In this document: positions 11,919 to 31,400 of the stretch, piece by piece
Layout of the letters: each line of letters starts with the position of its first letter
Numbering within the stretch: the first letter of the stretch is position 1
Source of the DNA: an uncultured Verrucomicrobiota bacterium
Lineage (GTDB): Bacteria > Verrucomicrobiota > Kiritimatiellia > RFP12 > UBA1067
Assembly: GCA_946610035.1 (NCBI GenBank)
Contig: CAMOCC010000025.1
Span: 1 to 32,090 of the forward strand
DNA length: 32,090 nt
Direction: 5' to 3'
Notes under the pieces: generated by a model
The model's input: the letters and a program-made list of their open reading frames with translations, nothing else
What the model was told of the DNA's origin: nothing
Database searches by the model: none
Translations under genes and position numbers: made by a program

Positions 11919-12749
11919 CTACTTCCCGAGGGAATAGCGCTTGAAGAAGTTCCAGAGCTCGTGCGTCGTGCTGACGCTGTGGGCGGGGTCCTCTGAATGC
12001 CAATGCCCCTTGTCGTCGAGGGCCAGCAGGGCGATTGCGGCCTTCCCGTCCTTCTTGCGCCATAGCGTCAGCGTTGCGCGGGCGTCCTTTCGCGGATAGC
12101 GATCCTTGACCTTCTTTACGTCGAAGCCCTGGTGCTTCGCCCACTTCTCGACGTATTCCGCGATGGAGGGGTATCCGCCCGCGGGATGCTTCAGGTCGCC
12201 CTTCCACCAGAAGACGTTGTCGCCCGTGCCGTGGACGTGCATGAACGAGACGGGCTTCTTCGACTGCGGCGGACGGTTGTCGAAGCGGACGCCGCTGACT
12301 GGCCCGAAAGCGGCGATCTTGTCGCTCATGTGCTCCATGCACTGGTAGGTCATCATCGCGCCAAGCGAGAAGCCGGTGATGTAGATGCGCTTGCGGTCGA
12401 TCTTGTAACGCCTGTACATCTCCTCGATGACCGCATCGATGAACCGCAAGTCGCGCTCTCCGCCGACGTCCCAGAAGGTGTCGATTGCGTTGGGGTATAC
12501 GACGACGAACTTGTTCTCGTCCGCGCAGTCGTTCCAATGCGTCTGCCCGGCCTGGAAGTAGGCGTCCTGGCGGAATCCGTGCAGCGATATGACGAGCGGG
12601 GCGTCCTTCTTGGGGAGGCCCTTCGGGGCGTGGACGAGCATTGTCCTGTCCCTGCCGTCGACTCTGATTGTATCGAGGGCGGGACGTTCCTGGGCCGTGG
12701 CATGAACCGCGGCGAGGGCTATGGCGCAGGCTGTTAGTAGTGTTTTCAT
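11919..12749 (-). CDS. Secreted feruloyl/acetyl xylan esterase-like alpha/beta hydrolase (PHB depolymerase family)
   Basis: This 276-residue hydrolase has a signal peptide (1-19, AVHATA-QE). The family pattern includes PLVISLHGFRQDA, an oxyanion-region motif, and the nucleophile elbow GFSLG with S128. D177 (HGTGDNVFW) and H249 (KGHWHS) would complete the triad. LpqC/PHB-depolymerase-type esterases include feruloyl and acetyl xylan esterases. The position beside GH10 and GH43 genes supports removal of acyl groups from xylan, but the exact ester cannot be read from sequence. The gene has its own promoter and converges on the xylanase gene. Confidence 0.82.
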   Translation of the reverse strand: MKTLLTACAIALAAVHATAQERPALDTIRVDGRDRTMLVHAPKGLPKKDAPLVISLHGFRQDAYFQAGQTHWNDCADENKFVVVYPNAIDTFWDVGGERDLRFIDAVIEEMYRRYKIDRKRIYITGFSLGAMMTYQCMEHMSDKIAAFGPVSGVRFDNRPPQSKKPVSFMHVHGTGDNVFWWKGDLKHPAGGYPSIAEYVEKWAKHQGFDVKKVKDRYPRKDARATLTLWRKKDGKAAIALLALDDKGHWHSEDPAHSVSTTHELWNFFKRYSLGK

Positions 12750-12755
12750 GCCTAT

Positions 12756-12784
12756 ATGATACCATAATCCACGTTTCCGTGAAA
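12756..12784 (-). promoter_or_regulatory. Promoter of the esterase gene
   Basis: On the minus strand TTTCAC (12779-12784) and TATCAT (12756-12761) are separated by 17 bp. The -10 box ends 6 bases before the ATG at 12749, predicting a leaderless mRNA. The phased TTAGGGTC array begins just upstream. Confidence 0.55.
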
Positions 12785-12791
12785 TTCTCCT

Positions 12792-12855
12792 TTCGGGTCA
12801 TTTAGGGTCGGTTAGGGTCGAGGCTCCAAGACCCTAACTGACCCTACCACCCTAA
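12792..12855. repeat. Phased TTAGGGTC array with inverted copies (promoter-region copy)
   Basis: Forward motifs start at 12792 (TTCGGGTC), 12802 and 12812, exactly 10 bp apart. Inverted motifs start at 12830, 12840 and 12848 (the last as CACCCTAA). Bases 12803-12819 pair with 12830-12846 in a 17-bp stem with a single G-T, closing a 10-base loop. The element lies between divergent esterase and secretin promoters. A related but longer array sits inside mtaB at 20156-20284. Confidence 0.85.
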
Positions 12856-12887: not shown

Positions 12888-12893
12888 TATAAT
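12888..12893 (+). promoter_or_regulatory. -10 box of the secretin operon
   Basis: TATAAT ends 7 bases before the ATG at 12901, so the transcript is predicted to be leaderless. No strong -35 hexamer is visible at 17-18 bp. The phased TTAGGGTC hairpin ends about 33 bp upstream. Confidence 0.6.
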
Positions 12894-12900
12894 ATGCTAC

Positions 12901-14556
12901 ATGCGTTTCCATACCTTAACATTGCCTATCATGGCGGTGGCGGCCTTCGTTGCGCCTTTTGCCGCCCATGCAGTCGCCGTCGAGGCGCCGAAGCCGGTGG
13001 AATCCGAGTCGGTGGATCTCATTGCGGAGGACCCGTCGGGAGAGGATGCCGTTCCGGCAGATCCCGTCGTCGAGGAGCCTGTCATCGACCACCAGAAGGT
13101 CGCCGAGGCTGCGGCCGCGGCGAAGGCGACGGAGGAGGCGCGGCTCGCCTTCACGGCGCAGGAGAAGGCCGAGGAGGAGCGCAAGGAGGAGGCGAAGCTC
13201 GCTACGCGCCGCATCTCGACGCGCGTCTTCCGCCTGGAGCACGCAAACGCAGAGGAGGTGGCGGAGCGCTTCAACGCGACGTGGAGCGGCGACTTCGGCG
13301 TAACCTGGAAGGTCTCCAAGATCGCGCAGGCGTTCCCCGAGGCGAACGCCGTCATGGTCACCGCGCCCGCGCTGATCCTTGACGCGTGCGCGGAGGCGAT
13401 CCGCCAGATCGACGTGGAGGTTCCGCAGGTCTACATCGAGGCGCGCTTCGTGGAGCTTTCGAACAACGCCTCGCACAAGCTCGGCATCGACTGGCAGATG
13501 CTGGACGGGATGAAGGGGTCCATTTCGCTCGACGCGGGGCTCAACGAGCGCAAGATGAAGGGCGTTTCGACGTACAACAGCGCGGACGGCACGTACACCA
13601 TGAGCGCCGAAGGGGGCGGACGCTCGACGGCGAACCTCTCGTATGTGAACGCGACGCTCGGGATGAGCGAGCTCTACGTGATACTCAGGGCGCTCGAGTC
13701 GTCCGAGGACGCGCGGACGTTCTCCAACCCGAAGATCATAGTCTCGTCGGGCAAGAAGGCGACGGTCGACATGACGACGAAGTACCCGAACGTCAAGATA
13801 TCCGCCAAGAGGACGACCAACTCCGGCGGCGACTCGCTCGACCTCGACATGCAGATGGCGGCGATACCGGGCGAGGACAAGCTGATGTTCGCGAAGGAGT
13901 CCTTCTTCAGCTGGGGAATCGCCCTTGACGTGACGCCGCGAATCAGCACGAACGGGCTCATCAACGTGCAGATCGTCCCGACGATCTCCTCGCGCTCCGG
14001 CTGGGTCGAGTCGGGGACCTCCGGCGACGATTCGGACGCCGGGACGATCTCCGCGCGCTATCCCGTCATCGACGTGCAGCGGCTTGTCACGGAGTTCAAC
14101 ATGGCGAGCGGCACGACGGCCGTCATCGGCGGGCTTTCGCTCACGGTGGAGACCCAGAAGGACAGCGGCATCCCTTGGCTCAGGGACTGGTGGTGGATCG
14201 GCCCCAGGCTCTTCGGCTCGAAGGTGCGCGTCAAGGAGCAGCGCGAGATCATCGTCTTCGTCACGGTCGGGCTCGTCGACCCGAACAGCATCAAGAAGGA
14301 TGCCGGGCTTCCCAAGAACGCCGTGCTCGGGCGGCAGTACACGGACGGCGTGAGGCGCGAGCCCGGCGACCGCATCCGCCAGCGCGCGGAGGGCGTCAAC
14401 TCTCTGGACTTGAGGCCCCTCGAGGAGCAGTACGCGGATCCTCGCAGGACGAACAGGGTCGTAAGGGCCGGCTTCGGCTTCGACAGGCTTCCCATCCCCT
14501 TCGTAAACGAAAACAACAACAATACAAACAAGGGAAACACCGAAAATGAAGACTAA
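12901..14556 (+). CDS. Secretin-family outer-membrane channel (type II/IV pilus secretin-like)
   Basis: This 551-residue protein has a signal peptide (about 1-24, AAHA-VA), then an acidic, Ala/Glu-rich helical stretch (25-100). A small N-domain-like fold (about 105-172) ends in the secretin-linked motif EAIRQIDVEVPQVYIEARFVEL. The secretin core (about 175-460) includes TFSNPKIIVSSGKKATV, GLINVQIVPTIS and GTTAVIGGLSLTVETQKDSGIPWL. The DWWWIGPRLFGS variant precedes the final strand EQREIIVFVTVGLV. The C-terminus (460-551) is polar and ends in an Asn-rich run. It has fewer N-domains than GspD or PilQ, and no other secretion or pilus gene lies in the window. It overlaps the next gene by 11 bases. 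Confidence 0.83.
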   Translation: MRFHTLTLPIMAVAAFVAPFAAHAVAVEAPKPVESESVDLIAEDPSGEDAVPADPVVEEPVIDHQKVAEAAAAAKATEEARLAFTAQEKAEEERKEEAKLATRRISTRVFRLEHANAEEVAERFNATWSGDFGVTWKVSKIAQAFPEANAVMVTAPALILDACAEAIRQIDVEVPQVYIEARFVELSNNASHKLGIDWQMLDGMKGSISLDAGLNERKMKGVSTYNSADGTYTMSAEGGGRSTANLSYVNATLGMSELYVILRALESSEDARTFSNPKIIVSSGKKATVDMTTKYPNVKISAKRTTNSGGDSLDLDMQMAAIPGEDKLMFAKESFFSWGIALDVTPRISTNGLINVQIVPTISSRSGWVESGTSGDDSDAGTISARYPVIDVQRLVTEFNMASGTTAVIGGLSLTVETQKDSGIPWLRDWWWIGPRLFGSKVRVKEQREIIVFVTVGLVDPNSIKKDAGLPKNAVLGRQYTDGVRREPGDRIRQRAEGVNSLDLRPLEEQYADPRRTNRVVRAGFGFDRLPIPFVNENNNNTNKGNTENED

Positions 14557-18555: not shown

Positions 18556-19244
18556 TCTTGTGTTCCTCTTTTTTCTGTTGTTGAAATCGCCTGCAGGACG
18601 GCCCGCCTCGTCTCGGGGACGCTTTCCAGGTGGAAGGCCCAGAAGACCCCGATCGCGCGGACGGCATCCGGCAGTGTTTCAGAATAGTTTACCAAATAAG
18701 GGTTGCGGAGGCAACGGGCAACATCCTTCGAGACGGGTATGCTCCTCTCGCCGCGGAGCGCGAAAACCCCGTTCTCCGCGTCCATTTCGGGGTCGAGGCC
18801 CGCAAGGCGCAGGGCGTCCAGCTCGAAGGCGAGGAGTTCGGCCAAAAGTCGCGGCGAGGGTTCGCAGAGCCTTGCGAGGTAGCGCGAGAGGAGGTCGAAC
18901 CAGTCCGCCGCGTCGGGTCCGGACGGGGCGATGTCGTATACAGCACGCCTGAAATGCTCGGCCAGGAGGAGTGCGCGGTAGTTGGTCCTGAGCGCCTCGC
19001 GCATCTCCACCGGCACGCAGTCCCTCAACGCATGGAGCTCGCCCTTTGCGCGCGCGTAGTAGACGATTTCGCACGTGTAGTTGAGGTCGTACTGCCCGAG
19101 GAAGAAGCTCTTGGGGCGGACCGCGCCCTTTACGACGGTGGAGAGGCGTCCGGACGGCGTGAACCATGTGACGATGTGGCTCGTCCTGGACCACGGGACG
19201 ATCCTGAGGCAGATCGCCTCCGTCTTGGCGGTCTCGCCCGCCAT
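18552..19244 (-). CDS. recO: DNA repair protein RecO
   Basis: This 230-residue protein matches RecO, which loads RecA on SSB-coated DNA in the RecFOR pathway. The N-terminal OB-fold begins KTEAICLRIVPWSRTSHIV, with FTPSGRLSTVVKGAVRPKS, the usual RecO start pattern. The helical C-terminal half contains LLAELLAFELDALRLAGLDPEM, and no CxxC zinc motif is present. The ATG at 19244 overlaps the mtaB stop by one base (TGATG), which fixes the start. It is fourth in the aspS operon. Confidence 0.9.
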   Translation of the reverse strand: MAGETAKTEAICLRIVPWSRTSHIVTWFTPSGRLSTVVKGAVRPKSFFLGQYDLNYTCEIVYYARAKGELHALRDCVPVEMREALRTNYRALLLAEHFRRAVYDIAPSGPDAADWFDLLSRYLARLCEPSPRLLAELLAFELDALRLAGLDPEMDAENGVFALRGERSIPVSKDVARCLRNPYLVNYSETLPDAVRAIGVFWAFHLESVPETRRAVLQAISTTEKRGTQE

Positions 19245-20551
19245 CAGACCGGGTCCCCTGTGAGCATGTGGCCGTCGGATTCCTTGACGCGGATTCGCAC
19301 GAGGTCCTTGCGCTTCAGCTTTCTGCCGTTCCTCCCGAAGGCGAATGCGCCGGGCTTCTCCTCGCCTACGCGGCACCAGAGGTACTCGGACGTCCATCCC
19401 GCAATCGACTTCTCGTCCTCGACGACGACCTCCACGTCGTGTCCGCGGAAGCGCTTCGCGTAGAGCGTCCGCTTCTCGTCCATGAGATTCGCGATCTCGT
19501 GTGCGCGCGCCGACCGGACGGGCTTCGGCACCACGCCAGGGAGGGCGGCGGCGACGGTTCCGGGGCGTTCCGAGTAGGGGAAGACGTGCGCCTTGGTGAA
19601 GGGGTGGCGGCGGAGAAAGCCGAGCGTCGCCAGCTGGTCGTTGTCCGTCTCGTCCGGAAACCCCGTCATCATGTCGCAGCCGAGCCCGAGGTTTGGCATC
19701 GCCTTCGTCGCGGCGTGGATCAGCTCGTCCACCTGGTGGACGGAGTATGGCCGCCGCATTGCCGCGAGGATGCGCGCCGAGCCGGTCTGGACGGGGATGT
19801 GGAGGAATCGGCACACGTTCGCGTGCTGCGCCATCGCCGGCACCACGTCCAGCGCGACGGGTCCGGGTTCGACGGAACTGAGTCGTATGCGGCAGTCGGG
19901 GGAGAGCGAGGCGAGCGCGTCCACGAGTTCGGGGAGGCGCCTTCCGTCGGCGTTGTACTGCGCGAGGTTGCAGCCGGTCACCACGATCTCGTGGTAGCCC
20001 GCGTCTATGAAGCGCTTCGAGGTGTCGAGGACCTCGTCCCATGCGACGGACCTGGAACTGCCGCGGAATTGAGGCACGATGCAGAAGGCGCAGCGCGAAG
20101 CGCAGCCGTCCTGGACCTTGAGGTACGCCCGCGCAGTCCTGGTGGGGATAGGGCCTTTTAGGGTCGAGTTAGGGTCTTTTAGGGTCGGGTTAGGGTCTTT
20201 TAGGGTCGGGTTAGGGTCTTTTAGGGTCGAGCTTGAGTTGACATTGACCCTAGTTGACCCTAAACTGACCCTAGAAGACCCTACTCCCTTGAGGAAATAT
20301 CCCTTGTCCGCCGAGGGCAGGCAGCCTGTCACAATGACGCGCTTCGTCGGATATTTCCGCCTGATGTGGTCTATGAGGTGTTCGCAGTCCCGCTGGGCGC
20401 GGGCCGTCACGGAGCATCCGCGCACGACTACGAGCTGCGCGTCGGCGTGCGACTCGGTGCGCTCCCATCCGCGGGCGAGGTACTGTGCCTCCTCCGCAAG
20501 GGCCTCCGCGCGGTTGAGCCGGCAGCCGAACGTCTCGAAGCAGACCTTCAC
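19244..20551 (-). CDS. mtaB: tRNA t6A37 methylthiotransferase MtaB-like, with repeat-encoded linker
   Basis: This 435-residue radical SAM enzyme probably converts t6A37 to ms2t6A37 in tRNA. The N-terminal domain carries cluster cysteines C10 (FGCRLNRAE), C46 and C77. The radical SAM motif CASRCAFC has C150, C154 and C157, followed by IVPQFRG. Further family motifs are VTGCNL, RLSSVEP and HIPVQTGSARILAAMRRPY; a TRAM-like region ends the protein. Residues of about 90-137 form an odd linker between the two catalytic domains: a tandem 7-residue repeat TLKDPNP preceded by a low-complexity SRVSLGSTRVNVNSSS. It is encoded by the TTAGGGTC repeat element at 20156-20284. The frame is intact, so the enzyme may still be active. 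Confidence 0.88.
   Translation of the reverse strand: MKVCFETFGCRLNRAEALAEEAQYLARGWERTESHADAQLVVVRGCSVTARAQRDCEHLIDHIRRKYPTKRVIVTGCLPSADKGYFLKGVGSSRVSLGSTRVNVNSSSTLKDPNPTLKDPNPTLKDPNSTLKGPIPTRTARAYLKVQDGCASRCAFCIVPQFRGSSRSVAWDEVLDTSKRFIDAGYHEIVVTGCNLAQYNADGRRLPELVDALASLSPDCRIRLSSVEPGPVALDVVPAMAQHANVCRFLHIPVQTGSARILAAMRRPYSVHQVDELIHAATKAMPNLGLGCDMMTGFPDETDNDQLATLGFLRRHPFTKAHVFPYSERPGTVAAALPGVVPKPVRSARAHEIANLMDEKRTLYAKRFRGHDVEVVVEDEKSIAGWTSEYLWCRVGEEKPGAFAFGRNGRKLKRKDLVRIRVKESDGHMLTGDPV
20156..20284. repeat. Phased TTAGGGTC array with inverted copies inside mtaB
   Basis: Seven plus-strand TTAGGGTC motifs start at 20158, 20169, 20179, 20190, 20200, 20211 and 20221, alternating 11 and 10 bp (mean 10.5 bp). 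They form a 21-bp tandem unit that preserves the reading frame as seven codons. Four inverted GACCCTA motifs follow at 20246, 20256, 20267 and 20277. Bases 20190-20228 can pair with 20246-20284 at about 32 of 39 positions around a 17-base loop. The plus strand carries nine GGG runs, so G-quadruplex formation is also possible. Confidence 0.92.
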
Positions 20552-30554: not shown

Positions 30555-31376
30555 ATGACGGTAGACGCACATCATCATCTTTGGAAATACACCGCCGAGG
30601 AGTTCGGCTGGATTGCGGACGACGCATTGCGCCGTGACTTCAGTCCGTCCGACCTGAAGCGCGAACTCGACGCGGCCGGGGTGGACCGCACCGTCGTCTG
30701 CGAGGCGAGGCAGTCCGTCGCCGAGACGGACATGCTGCTTGCGGCGGCGGAGAAAAGCGAATGCATCGCCGGGGTCGTCGGCTGGCTTCCGATTGCGGAT
30801 GCGGAGGCGTTCCCGGCATTGCTTGAGCGCTACGCGGCGAACCCGAAGCTAGTGGGGCTCCGGCACGTAGTCCAGGACGAACCGGACGACGCCTTCATCC
30901 TGCGGGAGGACTTTGGGAGGGGCGTCGCCGCCATGCGCGGGACTGGCCTCGTCTACGACATACTCGTATTCCAGCGGCAGCTTGCGAACGCGATTCGCTT
31001 CGTCGACGCGCAGGCGGACGACCAGGTGTTCGTCCTGGACCATGTCGCGAAGCCCCGTCCGGACGCGATGGGGGAGTGGGCCGGGCTCGTACGCGAGATG
31101 GCGCGCCGTCCGAACGTCGTCTGCAAGTTCAGCGGCGTGGTGACCGAGGTCGGGACGGATCCGGACGTTGTCCGCCGCGTCTTCGACACGGTCCTGGAGG
31201 CCTTCGGTCCGGACCGCCTCATGTGGGGCAGCGACTGGCCGGTCGTGACTGCCCGCCTCTCCTACGTCGACTGGTTCGCCCGCGTCCGCGCTCTCGTCTC
31301 GTCCCTTTCCGCCGCGGAGCGCGCCTCGATCCTCGGCGAAACCGCATCCCGCATCTACCGCATTAGAGTCGTTTAG
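30555..31376 (+). CDS. Amidohydrolase-2 / sugar lactonase-like TIM-barrel hydrolase
   Basis: This 273-residue protein belongs to the amidohydrolase 2 group that includes L-fucono- and L-rhamnono-lactonases (COG3618-type). The metal-binding start is TVDAHHHLW with H6 and H8. VFVLDHVAKP and MWGSDWPV near the C-terminus carry other active-site residues. The start is preceded by a textbook AAGGAGG 7 bases upstream. A lactonase role would fit sugar-acid metabolism, but other decarboxylases and hydrolases share this fold. The TAG stop lies inside a TTTAGGGTC motif that begins a phased repeat array. Confidence 0.8.
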   Translation: MTVDAHHHLWKYTAEEFGWIADDALRRDFSPSDLKRELDAAGVDRTVVCEARQSVAETDMLLAAAEKSECIAGVVGWLPIADAEAFPALLERYAANPKLVGLRHVVQDEPDDAFILREDFGRGVAAMRGTGLVYDILVFQRQLANAIRFVDAQADDQVFVLDHVAKPRPDAMGEWAGLVREMARRPNVVCKFSGVVTEVGTDPDVVRRVFDTVLEAFGPDRLMWGSDWPVVTARLSYVDWFARVRALVSSLSAAERASILGETASRIYRIRVV

Positions 31377-31400
31377 GGTCTATTAGTGACATTTAGGGAC
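31373..31400. repeat. Half-array of TTAGGGTC-like motifs over a stop codon
   Basis: TTAGGGTC (31373), TTAGTGAC (31383) and TTAGGGAC (31393) start exactly 10 bp apart. The first includes the TAG stop of the amidohydrolase gene. No inverted half follows. A short hairpin CCCGC-GAAT-GCGGG (31405-31418) with TTTT at 31427 comes next and might weakly terminate transcription. Confidence 0.7.

Follow-up and report, generated by a model that had tools for sequence, protein, structure and literature searches.

The element at positions 12792–12855 probably represents a lone member of a palindromic repeat family that is dispersed in the genome of this species and specific to it, a piece of selfish or tolerated DNA that came to lie between two promoters incidentally. 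Arrays of the same unit occur at many other sites in the genome, both between genes and, in frame, within them. It is the unit and its orientation that are kept in these arrays, rather than the hairpin that the two arms can form. In other genomes, arrays of this kind are associated with genes for four-helix-bundle proteins of the S23/IVP type.

Architecture of the element

The element was studied in a stretch of 32,090 nucleotides (the window) from an uncultured Verrucomicrobiota bacterium. It consists of three forward units resembling TTAGGGTC, followed by two to three inverted ones, and lies between a gene for a PHB-depolymerase-type esterase and a secretin gene (Table 1). The original prediction, which was made from the letters of the window, described forward and then inverted units at a spacing of 10 bp, a 17-bp stem with one G-T pair, and ends lying within about 35 bp of each −10 region. 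The units and the pairing arms were located as described, and the distance from the ends of the element to both −10-like hexamers is 31–33 bp. The same prediction gave the array in mtaB an identical spacing, which needs correction, as the mtaB array alternates between 10 and 11 bp whereas the element at 12792–12855 is strictly of 10 bp.

Table 1. Features of the element, its flanking genes and the related arrays in the window.
Feature	Position	Strand	Remark
Unit 1, TTCGGGTC	12792–12799	+	1 mismatch to TTAGGGTC
Unit 2, TTAGGGTC	12802–12809	+	Exact; 10 bp from unit 1
Unit 3, TTAGGGTC	12812–12819	+	Exact; 10 bp from unit 2
10-nt loop separating the arms	12820–12829		
Inverted unit 4, TTAGGGTC	12830–12837	-	Exact
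Inverted unit 5, GTAGGGTC	12840–12847	-	1 mismatch; 10 bp from unit 4
Degenerate inverted unit, TTAGGGTG	12848–12855	-	8 bp on, out of phase
Inverted repeat I1	12803–12819 / 12830–12846		17-nt arms, 94% complementary, one G-T pair
-10-like hexamer TATCAT, upstream of the esterase gene	12756–12761	-	Consensus match only
-10-like hexamer TATAAT, upstream of the secretin gene	12888–12893	+	
PHB-depolymerase-type esterase gene (PF10503)	11919–12749	-	Flanking gene
Secretin gene (PF00263, PF03958)	12901–14556	+	Flanking gene
Sister array, 8 forward and 4 inverted units	20148–20284		Alternating 10/11; in frame in mtaB (19244–20551, -)
Third array, degenerate: TTAGAGTC, TTAGGGTC, TTAGTGAC, TTAGGGAC	31363–31400	+	10-bp spacing; at the 3' end of ORF 30555–31376

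A family of arrays in the genome

That the element belongs to a family, as had been proposed from its likeness to the mtaB array, was borne out more strongly than the window could have revealed. The entire 3.03 Mb assembly (191 contigs, 88% complete) contains 71 exact pairs of the form TTAGGGTC-N1-4-TTAGGGTC, against none for the reversed control; with up to two mismatches allowed the counts are 161 and 2, respectively. In the array-bearing stretches of the genome that were fetched, 44 arrays of 18–222 bp each were found, 20 of them within coding sequence according to gene calls and 24 outside. The arrays vary in length and in their spacers, and are not uniform in the way that copies of one fixed element would be. 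The solitary heptamer TAGGGTC is not enriched outside arrays (16 occurrences versus 30 for the reversed word) in a 400 kb background of contigs without listed arrays, which served only for this count; the unit thus resides in arrays. No TTAGGGTC arrays were present in 39 relatives, comprising 23 congeners and 16 genomes of the same order. Among viral contigs, 30 stretches with TTAGGGTC pairs were seen, a number judged to be near chance for a pattern of that length.

Three arrays (L037:3993–4123, L062:3928–4058 and L066:4027–4054) occupy an equivalent spot upstream of very large ORFs. The three regions are apparently paralogous and have a spacer of about 80 bp in common, and should be useful for tracing how arrays grow. 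At a further locus (L048:1187–1250), a repeat of a second type, GCGACTAGCGACTAACGACTAGCGAC, immediately follows a TTAGGGTC array.

Arrays inside genes

The 20 intragenic arrays are in frame, and most of their hosts were verified with Pfam: histidinol dehydrogenase (hisD), altronate dehydratase, threonine synthase, PriA, DnaG, MutS, DnaX, MnmE, UvrA, TatD, IspH, a methionine-synthase-type enzyme, MtaB, two SNF2 helicases, a glycosyltransferase, a peptidase U32 and a radical SAM protein. Pfam gave no informative domain for two array-spanning ORFs. The translated insert reads as LGS.RV repeats followed by TL.DPNP repeats. At all seven genes checked the orthologous position is empty in relatives: the array is missing from mtaB in 22 of 22 congener sequences, and from dnaG, mutS, ispH, mnmE, uvrA and the metH-like gene in one congener each. 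The comparison was made between orthologous proteins with diverged linkers, in which boundaries cannot be set. It gave neither a target-site duplication, as expected of a MITE, nor an empty site within the species, and mobility of the arrays is thus a supposition. The arrays translated in mutS, uvrA, dnaG, priA and mnmE amount to a natural test of repetitive DNA entering essential proteins.

The spacing of the units depends on the setting. On either strand, TTAGGGTC encodes a stop in one of the three frames. Steps of 10 bp run through all three frames, whereas alternating steps of 10 and 11 bp use only two and avoid the stop frame. Inside genes, 75 of the 76 successive steps alternate between 10 and 11 bp and one is repeated; outside genes, by contrast, 63 of 70 are repeated (mostly 10-10) and 7 alternate. 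The in-gene pattern is partly automatic, because no ORF could run through a long 10-10 array. That the steps alternate, that they hardly ever do so outside genes, and that the hosts are domain-verified is not explained in this way.

The arrays also bear traces of their growth. In genes, spacers two steps apart are identical in 17 of 52 cases, which suggests a 21-bp duplication as a growth route of intragenic arrays, and the longer arrays contain 21-bp or 10-bp duplications. Local tandem duplication, as judged from the repeated spacers, is thus also a contributor to the arrays. It could be supposed that such growth is the entire explanation, with each array originating locally by slippage and then lengthening by tandem duplication without any mobility. 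The repeated spacers and the duplications would both follow from this, but slippage should copy spacers as faithfully as units, and it does not yield two convergent arms, which 18 arrays possess. Moreover, 44 unrelated sites share the same 8-mer, and there is no pool of solitary units from which they could have started. Purely local growth is therefore improbable.

Units rather than a stem are conserved

Positions 2–4, 6 and 8 of the unit are 97–99% conserved, inside and outside genes alike, and the spacers are variable. The conserved unit comprises 7–8 bp, (T)TAGGGTC, and occurs once per helical turn. The two-armed arrays all have the forward arm first and the inverted arm second, in convergent order (18 of 18, with none in the opposite order). 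On the TTAGGGTC strand, C is almost missing from the spacers (11 of 475), in genic and non-genic arrays alike.

An alternative is that the family is maintained as a nucleic-acid hairpin, either an RNA structure or a DNA cruciform, serving as a terminator, an RNase III site or a REP-like stem. The element at 12792–12855 does fold strongly on both strands, with z-scores relative to shuffled sequence of −5.8 for the RNA of the + strand, −3.7 for the RNA of the − strand and −4.9 for the DNA. However, 26 of the 44 arrays are single-armed, and in the two-armed ones the spacers of the two arms are no better matched than when arms of different arrays are compared (p 0.27 to 0.86), whether or not G-T pairs are allowed. 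The hairpin was rejected on this ground as the selected feature. An intrinsic terminator was also rejected, the element having no GC stem followed by a run of T, as was a known structured RNA, with no Rfam match at the gathering score. Of the explanations considered, a functional hairpin is accordingly the one that we regard as barely credible. The convergent order, the conservation of the unit and the unmatched arm spacers together fit recognition of an oriented unit better than a selected stem: the units, not the stem, are what is kept.

Position relative to promoters

The original prediction went on to suggest that the element could control both of its neighbours, which would make it a two-way cis-regulator dedicated to the esterase and secretin promoters. 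Its placement 31–33 bp from both −10-like hexamers is in keeping with this, but the rest of the family is not. Listing the arrays relative to genes, as the prediction had proposed, places 20 of the 44 inside coding sequence, so that they are scattered regardless of genes. Divergent gaps are not favoured either: about 18 intergenic arrays have a called gene on either side, and two to three of these lie between divergent genes; the corresponding figure for the gaps in this DNA is 12 of 133. In the congener loci with a readable region upstream of secretin, neither the array nor the esterase is present there, and a promoter role argued from synteny was rejected for the same reason. As intergenic arrays show no bias towards divergent promoters and the readable congener loci have no array at secretin, control of both promoters is unsupported, and we regard a dedicated two-way regulator as very unlikely. 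Simple insertion may nevertheless influence one promoter or both locally.

The conservation of the units could also reflect a host function, in which phased units on one face of the helix are read in the DNA, irrespective of location, by a repetitive DNA-binding protein such as a nucleoid organiser or a regulator, and selection keeps the sites. The high conservation of the core positions beside variable spacers, the single unit per turn and the fixed convergent order are all consistent with such binding-site arrays, and the 10/11 alternation in genes holds the phase at 10.5 bp. Binding by a protein of the element itself would, however, yield equal conservation of the unit. In addition, an ancient role is contradicted by the lack of TTAGGGTC arrays in every congener and order-level relative tested, divergent promoters are not enriched, and there are no solitary sites outside arrays. 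A host binding-site array is therefore unlikely, though it is slightly less so than purely local growth. A dispersed repeat that is selfish or tolerated is the reading that we prefer.

Association with four-helix-bundle genes

The S23/IVP four-helix-bundle genes, which encode a widespread orphan family, are known chiefly from intervening sequences of rRNA. A scan of the collection found TTAGGGTC arrays in other rumen genomes as well. In two of these, Kiritimatiellae RGIG2266 (L076) and RUG12612 (L082), the arrays flank both sides of a gene encoding a four-helix-bundle suffix protein (TIGR04258, 48 bits; TIGR02436, 32 bits). A 49% identical suffix gene in a member of the Bacteroidaceae (L262) adjoins arrays of TTAGNGTC, which brings to three the other genomes where such a gene has arrays of this unit next to it. 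Congeners have arrays of a different unit, TCTAGNNNN, in 14 of 58 genomes (controls 0), and these flank a suffix gene on both sides in G001, G004 and G010 and adjoin one in G021. In another congener, G200, 72 TCTAGNNNN matches are dispersed, many of them in ORFs (e.g. L410–L417, L424 and L425); this dispersal parallels the expansion of TTAGGGTC.

The association extends across the class. Arrays of four units with a period of 9 were found at 8 of 30 suffix-gene loci (0 for periods 10 to 13), and none of 51 control mtaB and secretin loci had four-unit arrays of periods 9 to 11. Plain four-helix-bundle genes lie between inverted flanks at 14 of 22 loci, versus 0 of 47 control loci (p 2e-9), and the flanks are often heptamers or octamers. 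At plasmid loci of these genes (cyanobacteria, Gemmatirosa), inverted flanks occur in 8 of 12 at a score of at least 20, and several such loci sit between genes of an operon. The similarity of the units correlates with the identity of the four-helix-bundle proteins (Mantel r 0.55; 0.24, p 0.001, for pairs below 70% identity), a correlation that is partly due to the shared descent of whole loci.

Several further observations were made at these loci. Plain (S23) genes were seen between inverted heptamer or octamer arrays in many genomes, among relatives (L200–L225) and on plasmids (L426–L437). On cyanobacterial plasmids such genes are lodged within gene pairs, among them those for the ribonucleotide reductase subunits, cas10-cmr3 and cas6-cas4. 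At the mtaB locus of G025 (L250), inverted arrays of period 9–10 (CTCTGTG.../CACAGAG...) lie on both sides of mtaB.

No four-helix-bundle gene lies between the repeats at 12792–12855, and searches with PF05635, TIGR02436, TIGR04258 and a protein query detected neither type in this genome (G000), whose assembly is 88% complete. An S23 or four-helix-bundle gene was present in 32 of the 40 genomes of the relatives search, yet none was found in G000. Genomes that bear the gene tend to have few arrays elsewhere, and G000, where no gene was found, is rich in dispersed arrays. The suffix protein has no relative in the viral contigs and no sequence relative in the PDB. The open-licence literature yielded no connection between four-helix-bundle genes and short tandem arrays, a scope that limits any claim of novelty.

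Based on these data, copies of the array would arise at many unrelated sites (at least 44 in this genome), would lengthen or shorten by whole units, and would persist in intergenic DNA, or in genes when the spacing keeps the frame open. An intragenic array would then amount to an extra linker peptide (LGSDRV...TLKDPNP), and the place of the present element between the esterase and secretin promoters would be incidental. The copies presumably spread because some process recognises or copies the unit, and that process may derive from four-helix-bundle (S23/IVP) elements; the TTAGGGTC arrays may be the ends, or the solitary leftovers, of S23-type elements. More tentatively, and as a proposal that may well not hold, the S23/IVP genes could form the coding core of a widespread class of elements that end in convergent arrays of units of 7–11 bp, each unit being specific to a protein lineage and recognised by its protein. 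Short tandem repeats found dispersed in many genomes, such as the cyanobacterial STRRs, the GGGAATC sites of Xanthomonas and the TTAGGGTC arrays, would then be coreless copies, colonising housekeeping genes when their spacing avoids stops. If the link holds, it would explain what a large orphan protein family does and where the short tandem repeats described long ago in cyanobacteria and xanthomonads come from.

Comparison with known systems

REP sequences, which are associated with RAYT proteins, are short dispersed palindromes, as are the TTAGGGTC arrays, but the latter also occur inside genes. Mobilisation by a RAYT was rejected, as the two Y1-transposase loci of the genome are without an array (none at L071 and one lone unit at L072). 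Borg tandem repeats (aaTRs) keep the frame within ORFs and need not do so between genes; in the part of the Borg study drawn upon here, unit lengths are divisible by three and palindromes are not reported (PMC9879509), unlike in the TTAGGGTC arrays.

In the heptameric tandem-repeat families, short imperfect arrays number in the hundreds. Xanthomonas has about 70 pairs of GGGAATC sites, which are always convergent (PMC4692102), and the TAACTGA arrays of Beggiatoaceae have been discussed as possibly mobile and, by virtue of their frame, tolerated in coding sequence (PMC4679880). The words 'four helix', 'S23' and '23S' do not appear in either paper. The TTAGGGTC arrays resemble these families and the cyanobacterial STRRs in being imperfect arrays of a short unit with paired sites in convergent order (18 of 18 here). 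They differ from the 7-bp unit of the heptameric families in having a unit of 10–11 bp with 10/11 alternation, and from the GGGAATC and TAACTGA arrays in that the two-armed copies are mostly intragenic.

In the intervening sequences of 23S rRNA, an S23p (four-helix-bundle) ORF lies within complementary ends, and the whole is regarded as a selfish element (PMC4990558). Similarly, in L076 and L082 complementary sequences, here TTAGGGTC arrays, enclose a gene of the same family. In the known cases the site is an rRNA helix and the ends form a plain stem, whereas the gene-bearing array copies lie between protein genes and have repeat arrays as their ends.

The closest parallel in behaviour is with the palindromic elements of Rickettsia (RPE) and their Wolbachia counterparts, which are dispersed, with about half in frame within unrelated conserved genes and others intergenic (PMC10969869, PMC2229807). 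Like RPE, the TTAGGGTC arrays are present in many copies, both intergenic and in frame in unrelated conserved genes (20 of 44), and are missing from orthologous positions in relatives (7 of 7 genes). RPE are of 105–150 bp with a fixed family sequence; the TTAGGGTC arrays, in contrast, are of 18–222 bp, with variable spacers, a helical phase and a spacing that depends on the frame. The TTAGGGTC family works like RPE, but is not classed as one.
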